This document shows positions 3,865 to 11,142 of a stretch of DNA of 64,000 nt, one piece after another. The position numbers and the translations under genes are program-made. The first letter of the stretch is position 1. The number at the start of each line of letters is the position of its first letter. The notes under the pieces were generated by a model, which made no database searches, had not been told where the DNA came from, and was given only the letters and a program-made list of their open reading frames with translations. The stretch spans positions 248,001-312,000 of the forward strand of contig NZ_FODC01000002.1 of assembly GCF_900110275.1 (NCBI RefSeq). Reading direction: 5' to 3'. This stretch comes from Duganella sp. CF517. Its GTDB lineage: Bacteria; Pseudomonadota; Gammaproteobacteria; Burkholderiales; Burkholderiaceae_D.

Positions 3865-5616
3865 CTATTGCATCATTGATTCGGGCGTCGCTTCGTGCGG
3901 CGCCTGCGCCTCCTGGGGCTTGGCCGCCGCGTCGGCCGGCTTTTTCTTGCGGAAGCCCTGCCAGATTTTCAGCGGCGCGGCGCCGGATTTTTTGCGGCGC
4001 CAGTAGATCAGGCCAGCGCCAGCGAGCAGCAGCGCGCCGACGGCGCCGGCGCCCCAGGCGACATAGTTGGTCGGACGTTCGACCGGCTTTTCCTTCTTGT
4101 ATTTCAGCTTGGGCAGCACGCGCTTGAGCGGCACCGGCGCCGACGCCGAAGCGGACGCACCGGCCGCCGAGGCCGACGCGTTGGCGCCATGCCGGCCTGC
4201 CGACGCCGATGCCGAGGCGGAAGCGGCGCCCGCCGTGGCCGACGCCGAGGCGCCATCCATCGTCGCCGCCTGCGCTTCGCCGGCGTGGACAGGTTTGTTC
4301 GATTTGCCTGGTTTGTCCTCGGCGGGCTTGGCCGACGCCGTCTCGCGGCCGGACGGCGCTCCCGGCGCCGCCGACGCGACCGAAGCAGCTTTCGGCGCGT
4401 CGCTAGCCGTCGCCGCCGGCGCCGCCACCGCGGCCGCCACGCTGCTGCCGGCCGCGGCCAACACGGCGGTCCCGGCCTGCCCCACCTTGGACGCGGCGGC
4501 GGGAGCGGCCGCCGGCGCCGCCGCATTCTTGATCGCGCCTTGCAGCGCCTTCATTTTCCCCTCCAGCTCCACCAGCTTGGTGGACAAGGCCAGGCTGTGC
4601 GTATCGAGCGCCTTACATTCCTTGACGCTGTTGCCGGACGGCGCGCAAGCGGCGGGCGCGGCCGGGCGCTTGACGCCGGCAGGCAACGGCAATGGTCCCA
4701 GCGGCAGCAGAGCCTGCGCCACCGGCAGCGGCACCGTGCCGTCGGCCGCATCCCGCTTTGCCGGCGGCTTGGCCGGAACCGGCGCGGACGCGGACGCGGA
4801 GGTGGACGCGGAGCTGGACACGGCGCTGGACACGGCGCTGGACGGCGAGCCGGGCGCGGCGGTAGCGGCCGGCGCGGCGGCGGCCGCTACGCCGCGCGGC
4901 GTCCCCATCGCTTCGGCTATGCGCGATGGCAAATCCCGCACCGCCACCGCTCGCGTCGGCCGAACCGGCGCCGCTGCCGCTGCTGCGGCGGCCTTGAGCG
5001 CGCCCGCAACACCGGTTTCGGATTCATGCAACGACGGCAGTGGCGCCGGGCGCGACCGGTCCCTCACGGCCGGCGCCGCAGGCATGGCGGGCGCGGCGGC
5101 AACCCGCTCCGCCCTCGCCTGCGCCGCGATCCGCTCGACGTCGGCCGGCGTCGCCGCCGCTGGCGCCGGCACGGACACCGCCACCGGGGCCGGCGGCGGC
5201 GGCGGATTGGGGTCCGCCTGCAGCCAGACCGTTGCCAAACGCACATCCTGCCGCCCCGCCGCGCTCAATTCCACATACATATGGACGTAGTCGGCGTCGA
5301 TCGCGCGCGTGGTCGTCACGTGCAAAAACTGCTTCTGGTCGCGCTTGACGACAGCCATGCGCACCGTCGACAGCGCCGGGTTCATCGTGATGTTCGCGCC
5401 CCGGAACACATCCGGCCGCGCCAGCCGCACCTGCAAGGCGTTCACTTCGTCGGGCGCCAGCGCCACCAGTTCGATATCGGCCGACAGCGGCTGGCCGATG
5501 TACGAGCGCGCGGAAACGTCGCCCAGCTCGGCGGCGCCGGCCACGATGGCCGTCGGCGCCAGCACTGCGGCGCAGGCCAGGGAGCGGAGCAAATGTGTGA
5601 GTATGAAACGCTGCAT
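3865..5616 (-). CDS. FimV/HubP-like inner-membrane envelope protein
   Basis: The 583-residue protein has a signal peptide (about residues 1-28). A FimV N-terminal domain follows (about 29-152), starting ELGDVSARSYIGQPLSADIEL. Then comes a very long Ala/Pro/Ser-rich linker, one transmembrane helix (YVAWGAGAVGALLLAGAGLIYW) and a short basic cytoplasmic tail. FimV-family proteins organise cell-pole machinery such as type IV pili and type II secretion, and usually have a periplasmic LysM domain and a large cytoplasmic TPR region. I see neither LysM nor TPR here, so this is a short variant. It appears monocistronic, divergent from fumC. The family call is fairly safe; the role is not. Confidence 0.75.
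   Translation of the reverse strand: MQRFILTHLLRSLACAAVLAPTAIVAGAAELGDVSARSYIGQPLSADIELVALAPDEVNALQVRLARPDVFRGANITMNPALSTVRMAVVKRDQKQFLHVTTTRAIDADYVHMYVELSAAGRQDVRLATVWLQADPNPPPPPAPVAVSVPAPAAATPADVERIAAQARAERVAAAPAMPAAPAVRDRSRPAPLPSLHESETGVAGALKAAAAAAAAPVRPTRAVAVRDLPSRIAEAMGTPRGVAAAAAPAATAAPGSPSSAVSSAVSSSASTSASASAPVPAKPPAKRDAADGTVPLPVAQALLPLGPLPLPAGVKRPAAPAACAPSGNSVKECKALDTHSLALSTKLVELEGKMKALQGAIKNAAAPAAAPAAASKVGQAGTAVLAAAGSSVAAAVAAPAATASDAPKAASVASAAPGAPSGRETASAKPAEDKPGKSNKPVHAGEAQAATMDGASASATAGAASASASASAGRHGANASASAAGASASASAPVPLKRVLPKLKYKKEKPVERPTNYVAWGAGAVGALLLAGAGLIYWRRKKSGAAPLKIWQGFRKKKPADAAAKPQEAQAPHEATPESMMQ
4781..4846. repeat. Short tandem repeats in the linker of the FimV-like gene
   Basis: Tandem GGACGC units pass into two perfect 12-base copies of GCTGGACACGGC (4813-4824, 4825-4836) and a partial third. 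On the coding strand they specify an SSAV/SSAS-type low-complexity stretch in the periplasmic linker. Confidence 0.7.
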
Positions 5617-8946: not shown

Positions 8947-10611
8947 TCACCCCGTTTCAGCCATCCCGTCCATGTTGACCACCAGCGCGTGCGCCAGCCA
9001 CAGTTGTAAGGCGCCGGCCACGTCGAAGGCGTCGTCGATATCGAACGCGGCGTCGAGCGCGGCGCCGAAATCCCTCCCCTCCCCCAGTGCCCGCAGCGCG
9101 GCGTGACCGGCGCCGCTGAGCGGAACCACCTGTGCCTTCCACGCCGGACGCGCGACCACGCCATGGCTGGGCACCGCCATCTGTTCGGGGAAACCGATCC
9201 CGCTGTCGGGCTGATGCGCCTGCCACAGCGGAACCACGGCCCATTGCGACGACACCAGCCGGCAAGCCGGATGCAGGGTCATCCGGGCCGCCTCCATTTG
9301 CTCGGGCGACAAGGCGGCCAGCCGCTGCGCGGTGACGCCCTGGGCCGCCGGCGCGTAGTGCGCGCGGTGCAGCGCCCACTCCAGCGTCGCCATGTCGGGC
9401 AGGTAGGGACATTCGGCCACATGCGGAAAGTGGCGCAGGAAGGCGTCGAAGTCGGCGCCGAAGCGGTTCAGATCGCCGCTGGTGGATGGATGGTCCAGGC
9501 CGTAGGCTTTGCTCAGCGCGCTGAAAAACTCTTCCCCCACCAGCATCCGGACCACCGGATACGCGGCCGACAAGGTCTTGTCCCAGGTCGCGCTCAGATT
9601 GCCGCGATAGAGCCCGAACCGGTGCTCGTTGTCGCCGCCCTTAAATTGCGACAACACCTGCGGCGCCTGGGCCGGGTCGAGCAACGCGCCGGCGAAGCGC
9701 TGCTGGCCGGCGGCGAGGCCGGCAGCGTCCGCCGCCCCCGCTACCCGATTCGCCACGGGCGCCGGCGCAGCGGCGGGCGCGGCATAGCGGCGGTGCAGCA
9801 CCTCCGCCTTGGCGGCCTCTTCCAGCAGCACTTCGACGGTCGGAATGTCGGTATCCCACTCGATCAGCGTCGGCACGGCGCCAAAGCGCTCCAGCGCCGC
9901 CCCGTACAGGCGCCAGACGGGATCGGCCACCGCCGCGCCATGGTGATCGATGACCGCCTGGGGCGTCACCAGATGACCGGCCAGGTGCATCTCGCCGACC
10001 GTGCCGGGCGCGATCGCGGCGATCGCGGCCAGCGCGTCCTCGCCGTGGTTACATTGATTGACGTACAGGTTGTTGATATCGAGCAGCAGTCCGCAGCCAG
10101 TGCGGGCCGCCAGCGCCGCCATGAACTCCGCCTCGCTCATCGCATCGCGATGAAAGCGTACATAGGTGGAGACGTTTTCCAGCAGCAGCTGGCGCTTGAG
10201 CGTGTCCTGCACGCGGCCGACGCGCGCGCTCAGCAGGTCGAGCGCCGCATGGTCCAGCGTCAGCGGCAACAGATCGTTGAGGTGGCGGCCGCCGACGGCG
10301 CCCCAGCACAAGTGTTCGGACACCAGCACCGGTTCGACCCGCTCCACCAGGCTGCGCACGCTGTCCAGATGATGCTCCGAAAAGCCGCGCGCCGAGCCCA
10401 GGCCCAGGCCGACGCCATGCAGGCTGATCGGATAATCGCGGCGCAGTCGCTGCAGCACGTGATGATCCCAGCCGGCTTGATCGAGGTAATTTTCAGTGTG
10501 GACCTCGAGCCAGGCGGCGCGCGGCCGCTGCTCGAGAAACCGACGGTAGTGCGGCGCCCGCAATCCAACGCCGACACCCGGCTTGGGCTCCGGCATGCGT
10601 GGGGACGACAT
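8947..10611 (-). CDS. Fused bufferin maturation protein: MNIO enzyme (BufB/DUF692) plus BufC-like partner (DUF2063)
   Basis: This 554-residue single frame holds two domains normally encoded by separate genes. Residues about 12-275 form a DUF692/MNIO TIM barrel. Candidate metal-site residues are H65 (SLHG), E99-H100 (SEH), E145 (ENV), D178-N180 (LDINN), H209 and H213 (EMHLAGH) and E251 (IEWD). After an Ala/Pro linker (about 276-298), residues about 300-395 match DUF2063, the BufC/HvfC partner that recruits the precursor. MNIO enzymes use a multinuclear iron centre to modify cysteines of RiPP precursors, for example to thiooxazoles. The 10914 to 10660 precursor gene lies 48 bases upstream on the same strand. 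Domain calls are strong; the exact chemistry is inferred. Confidence 0.88.
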
Positions 10612-10659
10612 GGCTCCGCTGATTGTTGCGATGTTGAGGACTTGCGCGCCTGGTTGCGC

Positions 10660-10914
10660 TTACTTGGCTGGCGGCGTGGTTTTGCCGCCGGCTTTTTCGC
10701 AAGTGCCTTTTAAGACATATTTCCATTCGGTCGGCGCGTTGTCGACCTTGGCCTGGCCGGCGCACGAGTGCGTGCCGTTGGCGGCGGCGCAATCGTTCTG
10801 ACCGGCCTTGGCGATGCCGAAGCACTTCTCTTTCGGCGTGTCTTGATCGACGGCGGCGGCGGTGACGCAGACGGTGGCCAGGGCGGCTGCGATCAGGGCT
10901 TGACGTTTGTTCAT
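10660..10914 (-). CDS. bufA: Bufferin-type RiPP precursor (DUF2282, BufA-like)
   Basis: This 84-residue secreted precursor has an N-terminal signal sequence (about residues 1-22). Its mature part holds four cysteines: C31 (EKCFG), C42 (NDCAA), C51 (HSCAG) and C72 (GTCEK). [16 protein letters not shown] and the later HSCAG are hallmark DUF2282 motifs. Family knowledge: such peptides are modified by the MNIO BufB with BufC before export, and the product sequesters copper in the periplasm. The ATG at 10914 has a strong GAGGAGA ribosome site; frame upstream of it is non-coding. It is the first gene of a two-gene unit with the bufB-bufC fusion. No DoxX-like bufD is adjacent. Confidence 0.9.
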
Positions 10915-11142
10915 GGTAAGTCTCCTCGAATGGATGGTGAAAATCATATTGCAACCCAGTGTCGCCTGTAGGGCAAGCGTTTTTACAGGCGCAGCGTACC
11001 AGCAATAACGTAGATACGCATGTTTCTGTTGACCGGATTCACATCGAGGAGGGGTGCGGATCGAACGATCGCGCATAGACACCGCGCAACCGACGGCGCA
11101 CGGTGGTGCTTGCGGCGCCGGCAGGCGCCGCGATACCGCCGT

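Follow-up and report, generated by a model that had tools for sequence, protein, structure and literature searches.

Is the enzyme of a bufferin operon in Duganella sp. CF517 naturally fused to its partner protein, and what would such a fusion mean for the enzyme? The question is raised by one locus within a stretch of 64,000 nucleotides (assembly GCF_900110275.1, contig NZ_FODC01000002.1, positions 248,001 to 312,000), which we refer to as the window and whose own numbering is used throughout. At this locus, the gene bufBC (8947-10611, minus strand) runs from ATG to stop without an internal stop as a single frame of 554 residues, encoding both the MNIO enzyme BufB and its DUF2063 partner BufC. 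Its conservation among relatives confirms that bufBC is a natural fused gene and not an assembly error. Taken together with the precursor gene bufA, the domain content supports assignment of the locus as a putative Buf1 (DUF2282) bufferin operon with BufB and BufC fused.

Domain Architecture of bufA and bufBC

The fusion had been proposed in a first-pass annotation made from the DNA letters, and profile searches with the three families it named, DUF692, DUF2063 and DUF2282, all matched at the locus, with every feature on the minus strand. In Pfam, PF05114 (MNIO, DUF692) covers residues 12-271 of BufBC (9799-10578) with 332.7 bits (E 1.8e-99, cut-off 25) and PF09836 (DUF2063, the N-terminal domain of BufC) covers residues 303-392 (9436-9705) with 70.8 bits (cut-off 27.2). 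An Ala/Pro-rich linker (residues 272-302; 9706-9798) separates the two domains. NCBIfam assigns the N-terminal half to MNIO_BufB (NF050167) with 355.9 bits against a cut-off of 310. Upstream of bufBC, at a gap of 48 bp, lies bufA (10660-10914), whose 84-residue product matches PF10048 over residues 28-77 (85.8 bits, cut-off 22.4), as expected of a DUF2282 (Buf1-type) precursor; NCBIfam assigns it no family. Residues 1-21 (10852-10914) presumably form a Sec signal peptide, which was recognized by eye and is assumed to be cleaved after AAA. The mature part holds the four announced cysteines (31, 42, 51 and 72), while a fifth one, Cys16 in the signal peptide, had gone unmentioned.

The C-terminal region of BufBC (residues 393-554; 8950-9435) is presumably an RRE-type substrate-recognition domain, judged by its length and by its alignment through to the end of four stand-alone BufC proteins (L154, L151, L010 and L156). 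Two further results do not confirm this assignment: residues 303-470 match the HvfC model of NCBIfam partially and with a score below cut-off, and a PDB sequence search with the BufC alignment gave no match.

Searches of the whole genome with the Pfam models returned one MNIO, one DUF2063 and one DUF2282 match, all at the bufA-bufBC locus. With no second match to any of the three, the Buf system is self-contained, and BufBC has to do all the work itself, provided that the system is functional.

Nine residues of the enzyme half (H65, H100, E145, D178, N180, H209, D222, H224 and E251) do not vary across 58 fused proteins. Among them, H65, H100, E145, D178, H209 and E251 are candidate metal ligands by their place in the MNIO family. 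N180, D222 and H224 correspond to N175, D242 and H244 of HvfB when mapped by spacing through an alignment with 3bww, with HvfB itself outside the alignment. We presume 3bww to be the H. somni HvfB homolog, such a homolog being mentioned in the preprint on an engineered HvfB-HvfC fusion that is discussed below. Mutation of N175, D242 or H244 abolished HvfB activity (PMC13419390).

Conservation of the Fused Frame

Genomes of the genus offer the most direct view on whether the frame is real. MNIO was found in 73 of the 74 genomes and the fused frame in 72 (63 including the genome of the window, plus nine in a later round), the presence of both domains in one frame having been checked for the long-frame candidates with profiles built from the window's own proteins. 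Named Duganella, Massilia, Pseudoduganella, Rugamonas and Janthinobacterium all carry the fusion. Of the two exceptions, G056 is a 60% complete genome without a match, and G022 has frames of separate length only, a point against the preferred reading. Because the fused frame is conserved across independent assemblies of the genus, a frameshift, sequencing error or chimeric assembly, named in the first-pass annotation as what would undo its proposal, is ruled out for the window.

Database relatives of BufBC display the same architecture. A search that scored the 7994 candidates sharing most words with BufBC gave 2513 matches, and all 120 of those listed have both Pfam domains, with lengths of 503-615 residues; proteins of 0.55-1.75 times the query length were admitted, a range in which a split BufB below ~305 residues cannot appear. 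Between the ends of the profile domains, the linker has a median of 33 codons (16-101; 93 fused proteins), and the genomic distance between the domain ends of separate BufB/BufC pairs has a median of 19 codons (8-88; n = 74). Across 130 fused proteins, Ala makes up 27% and Pro 11% of the linker residues, and the linkers inspected look unalike between groups.

The genus also holds additional copies. Many genomes (e.g., those with loci L003-L026) carry extra split MNIO genes beside the fused one, some with a DUF2282 match ~1.1 kb upstream of the MNIO gene. At L121, two DUF2282 matches precede a single fused bufBC. A second MNIO copy in G053 (L262) is not fused to DUF2063, and its DUF2282 match sits in a frame of 487 residues, which could stem from an artefact of the frame or from a fusion that includes the precursor.

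Distribution of the Fusion

The enzyme and its partner had been described as normally separate, which holds for one part of the diversity and fails for another. In a phylum-wide sample, MNIO was found in 123 of 299 genomes, 120 of them outside the window's family. A frame of at least 500 residues around MNIO occurs in just three of these (G646, G826 and G753), and on checking none of the 120 carries a fusion, although a fusion cut by a contig end could escape. Split genes are thus the rule outside the family. Within the genus, in contrast, fusion is the rule, and the window's clade also turns up in no fewer than 12 further genera of the same family and in one genome of another family (L149), as counted from loci chosen for their long frames. 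The order-wide sample adds, among the matches listed, at least four fused genomes outside the family (G479, G510, G447 and G391). Across the samples, the long-frame candidates G646, G826, G753, G543, G311, G212, G553 and one G053 copy turned out not to be fused.

Of 80 loci from named organisms, 34 are fused and 46 separate; this set was picked for resemblance to fused proteins and its proportion is not a frequency. Two further fused types, introduced below as clade II and the Omnitrophota pair, were used as protein queries, one each, with the same filters as for BufBC. All 120 listed of 1790 matches to the clade II query, and all 120 listed of 1117 matches to the Omnitrophota query, are two-domain proteins, with Acidovorax, Chitinimonas, Ideonella, Hydrogenophaga, Omnitrophota, Eisenbacteria and Verrucomicrobiae among their source names. 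These many relatives indicate that the MNIO-DUF2063 architecture is not rare.

Apparent Separate Origins of Fused Proteins

Phylogenetic trees suggest that BufB and BufC were joined on several independent occasions in bacteria. In a quick BufB tree of 127 rows, in which L138 was scored as separate though it is fused (re-read as L267), fused proteins stand in separate places and the fused label shows four changes. Trees of the concatenated BufB and BufC domains were then made with 79 rows and, after addition of loci from named organisms, with 95 rows (30 fused and 65 separate), the latter with a midpoint root only. Both are thinned, hand-chosen subsets, with L138 and the partial L136, L077 and L140 left out. 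By parsimony, the fused label needs five changes on the 95-row tree; the starred branches force five, and bootstrap trees of the same set give five at both the 5% and the 95% points. The fused proteins fall into five groups on this tree.

Group I, the window's clade (clade I), comprises 17 rows. Group II (clade II) has eight rows (L027, L117, L118, L146-L148, L251 and L256) that come from two families of the order (the window's own and another), an Acidovorax metagenome-assembled genome (MAG) and a gammaproteobacterial MAG. The third group is L114, a contig of a Burkholderiaceae MAG (L203), the fourth consists of L242 and L243 from gammaproteobacterial MAGs, and the fifth of L208 and L217 from Omnitrophota MAGs. 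Approximately unbiased (AU) tests reject a single clade of all fused proteins (p 1.5e-59, 79 rows). On 95 rows, they also reject joining clade I with L114 (p 1.3e-64), clade I with L242/L243 (p 4.8e-10) and clade II with the Omnitrophota pair (p 0.0039).

Several points weigh against a count of five independent gains. The pairing of clade I with L114 is not rejected in the more poorly sampled 79-row tree (p 0.557). The groups compared by AU were defined with the tree already in view, and three pairings were tested. Three of the five groups (L114; L242 and L243; L208 and L217) rest on metagenome assemblies, the Omnitrophota type nonetheless having its many two-domain database relatives. Fission from a fused ancestor could, moreover, replace some of the gains.

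Precursors of the Fused Systems

Fused enzymes accompany two kinds of precursor: three groups adjoin DUF2282 (Buf1) precursors and two adjoin peptides with six cysteines. A DUF2282 match lies upstream in 120 of 130 fused loci (a set without L001, the duplicate of the window, and with loci from named organisms that partly repeat others); the remaining ten make up clade II and the Omnitrophota pair. In the translated clade II loci L027, L117, L146, L148, L251 and L256, a short six-cysteine peptide with a signal peptide recognized by eye stands upstream, and L118 and L147 have a six-cysteine peptide likewise. Both Omnitrophota loci hold such a peptide as well, the L208 frame beginning inside it. 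These peptides resemble the Buf2 type described in PMC12452194 and are termed Buf2-like here. In clade I, each of the 102 distinct precursors keeps four cysteines after the signal peptide is removed; the L242 precursor has six after its presumed signal peptide, compared to the usual four.

The start of the signal peptide is conserved. Among the 102 distinct clade I sequences, mean pairwise identity is 0.746 for residues 2-14 of BufA and 0.255 for residues 19-28. Codons differ in 37% of same-residue pairs, indicating that conservation acts at the protein level. Identity over residues 2-14 is also high in split systems of Undibacterium (0.839, seven sequences) and Paraburkholderia (0.744, seven sequences), sets that are each of close kin, whereas clade I spans many genera; one signal-peptide comparison left out the split rows L138, L237, L246 and L254. 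Because split relatives share it, the conserved start is no hallmark of fused systems. It fits the leader role reported for the signal peptide.

The additional cysteine, in contrast, is a peculiarity of clade I. A cysteine at position 15 or 16 (codon 16 of bufA is 10867-10869) occurs in 98 of the 102 clade I precursors, the exceptions being L058, L122, L140 and L144, and is absent from the split Undibacterium and Paraburkholderia relatives. It was found in ten of 61 loci scored as split: L138 is truly fused, seven are split copies of the genus, L227 is from a different lineage and the start of L237 is probably misplaced. No such cysteine occurs in the separately fused L114, L242 and L243. Together with the clade I exceptions, these three indicate that the signal-peptide cysteine is not essential to fusion and does not generally track it. 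A lipobox was rejected by eye, position -1 being mostly Val.

Absence of bufD

The first-pass annotation had noted that the DoxX-like bufD, named as part of the bufferin core (PMC12452194), is missing nearby. A search with a DoxX profile built for this analysis indeed found none between positions 4001 and 16000 of the window. Elsewhere in the genome there are two DoxX matches, and tblastn with the bufD of one relative gave no significant match at either site, so relocation of bufD is not supported by this one query.

Absence of bufD is a matter separate from the fusion. DoxX follows the fused gene at 27 of 64 fused loci in the genus, lies beside 11 of 28 other fused loci of the family and none of four outside it, and accompanies two of 18 additional fused loci; these counts are lower bounds, as some loci end at contig edges or have flanks of 1.5 kb. 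With DoxX adjoining so many fused loci, the idea that bufD loss accompanies fusion is rejected. It was not found with 37 of the 64 genus loci (window included) and 17 of the 28 other family loci, for which reason bufD was not treated as required for membership in the Buf1 cluster. Its absence looks like loss in some lineages, unrelated to the fusion.

Comparison with Known Systems

The closest described relatives are the Buf1 bufABCD operons of the Caulobacter vibrioides type (PMC12452194), which share the DUF2282 precursor (with its signal peptide and a mature part of four cysteines), the MNIO enzyme, the DUF2063 partner and the gene order A-B-C. The locus differs from them in that B and C form one protein, bufD is absent and the signal peptide has an extra cysteine. 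The clade II and Omnitrophota proteins have the same two-domain architecture as BufBC, but adjoin six-cysteine Buf2-like peptides and take separate positions in the tree. MbnBC and TglHI are heterodimers of an enzyme of the same family with a substrate-recognition partner (PMC12141560); PDB chains of both enzymes were matched in our sequence search. Unlike BufBC, they consist of two separate chains and make other products. MovX and ChrH, named as exceptions to separate partners (PMC13419390), combine MNIO with an additional domain in one chain, and in the available parts of that text neither is described as carrying a whole DUF2063 partner.

An artificial counterpart exists in the engineered HvfBC of a July 2026 preprint (PMC13419390), which has the same order, with the partner on the C-terminus of the enzyme. 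It has no linker and acts on an oxazolin (EGKCG) precursor, whereas BufBC is natural, has a linker of ~31 residues and adjoins a Buf1 precursor. The engineered fusion is markedly more active than the co-expressed pair and builds up the mixed-valent Fe(II)/Fe(III) cluster to a greater extent (PMC13419390). This lends support to the suggestion of the first-pass annotation that the fusion fixes a 1:1 stoichiometry and would be useful in vitro. In the openly accessible literature, with main texts covered in part, we found no mention of a natural MNIO-DUF2063 (BufB-BufC) fusion.

How the partner tunes the iron cofactor of MNIO enzymes has been approached in print, in the parts available, through the artificial fusion. 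Natural single-chain versions with varied linkers and two kinds of precursor make the question directly testable, and natural BufBC offers stable 1:1 complexes for structures, spectroscopy and kinetics. Database names such as UPF0276, DUF692 and 'MNIO family bufferin maturase' hide the architecture, and mining rules that expect the MNIO gene to be followed by a stand-alone DUF2063 gene could score such loci as partnerless.

Proposed Mechanism and Alternatives

What was observed directly is the single frame with its domains and its conservation, the genes present, and the scatter of fusions over the tree. These observations are, with high probability, best explained by a minimal two-gene Buf1 bufferin operon with a permanent single-chain complex of enzyme and partner. 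BufA would carry a Sec signal peptide that also acts as leader; HvfA without its signal sequence is modified poorly, and the reference list of the same preprint contains a 2026 bufferin paper whose title states this leader role (PMC13419390). The C-terminal BufC half would hold the precursor and keep the BufB half in its active di-iron state, in line with work on relatives, where precursor recognition and the active mixed-valent di-iron state both depend on the partner (PMC13419390). The BufB half would oxidize the central mature cysteines, Cys42 and Cys51, to thiooxazoles, and a Cys31-Cys72 disulfide would form after Sec export. In published Buf1, modification falls on the two central cysteines and the outer pair is joined by a disulfide (PMC12452194), and the product in relatives is a 5-thiooxazole (PMC13097082). 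For a mature peptide beginning at residue 22, as the assumed cleavage implies, these changes would lower the calculated monoisotopic mass from 6504.14 to 6494.06. Finally, the mature peptide would chelate copper in the periplasm.

Chemistry, copper role, leader role of the signal peptide and cofactor effect of the partner are drawn from published relatives, by analogy to which BufBC itself probably performs the whole scheme as a permanently assembled enzyme. The fusion, which may have arisen within the already standard gene order bufB-bufC, would make the complex permanent and free the active cofactor state from the meeting of two weakly associating subunits. Selection for such permanent assembly is plausible. 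A further-reaching idea, which we put forward tentatively and regard as rather doubtful, is that the fusion recurred about five times and for two precursor families as an answer to weak enzyme-partner association that limits the mixed-valent cofactor. The BufBC proteins would then be constitutively primed thiooxazole synthases, and the window's lineage would have acquired, at about the same place in the tree, a leader cysteine that helps in docking on the enzyme or is modified by it.

The main rival to selection is a neutral, ratchet-like accident, in which adjacent overlapping genes were merged by small indels with no benefit for stoichiometry or cofactor. We consider it a serious contender, if on balance the less probable account. 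With mechanically chosen starts, 37 of 119 split pairs have an overlap of 1-8 bases between the two frames, so that a small change suffices; linkers vary widely in length (16-101 codons) and sequence, and several genomes of the genus have kept separate copies alongside the fused one. The five groups on the tree and the persistence of the fused frame in 72 of 74 genus genomes, however, fit selection or at least strong retention, and the improved activity of the engineered fusion (PMC13419390) argues in the same direction. An inverse history, with the fused state ancestral and split operons as secondary fissions, draws on the midpoint root and on parsimony counting changes without direction. It is very improbable, since the 30 fused among the 95 rows are nested among split ones and, judging from the drawn tree, more losses than five gains would be needed.

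The fused enzyme might respond to something besides copper, be it another metal (gold, mercury) or a stress such as oxidants, or its locus might be poorly expressed. The missing bufD and the lack of a sigma-70-like promoter in a consensus scan would fit, as would the naming of some bufferin operons as gold-induced genes (PMC12452194). We deem this unlikely, given the conserved candidate ligand residues and mature cysteines and the intact frame in 72 of 74 genus genomes. As for two real genes joined by a frameshift, sequencing error or chimeric assembly, the window gives no support, and single MAG rows such as L114 are where it might apply. Independent assemblies across the genus, named organisms of five genera and the two-domain state of all 120 listed database relatives leave it a negligible chance. 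A natural BufBC acting as a single-chain maturase of a Buf1 precursor remains the preferred reading.

Flanking Genes and Upstream Region

Downstream of bufBC lies a convergent gene for a short DUF883-like protein, with a score just under cut-off, and the upstream neighbor of bufA encodes a YjfB-type motility protein. The consensus scan for sigma-70-like promoters gave 0 sites at the locus (0.5 expected by chance). Upstream k-mers of 102 loci display shared words and no clear regulator site. One such stretch, ATTGCTGGTACGCTGCG at 10990-11006 (minus strand) upstream of bufA, has 10-base words that recur in the upstream regions of ~20 of the 102 relatives. It may represent a promoter or regulator site, or plain shared ancestry.
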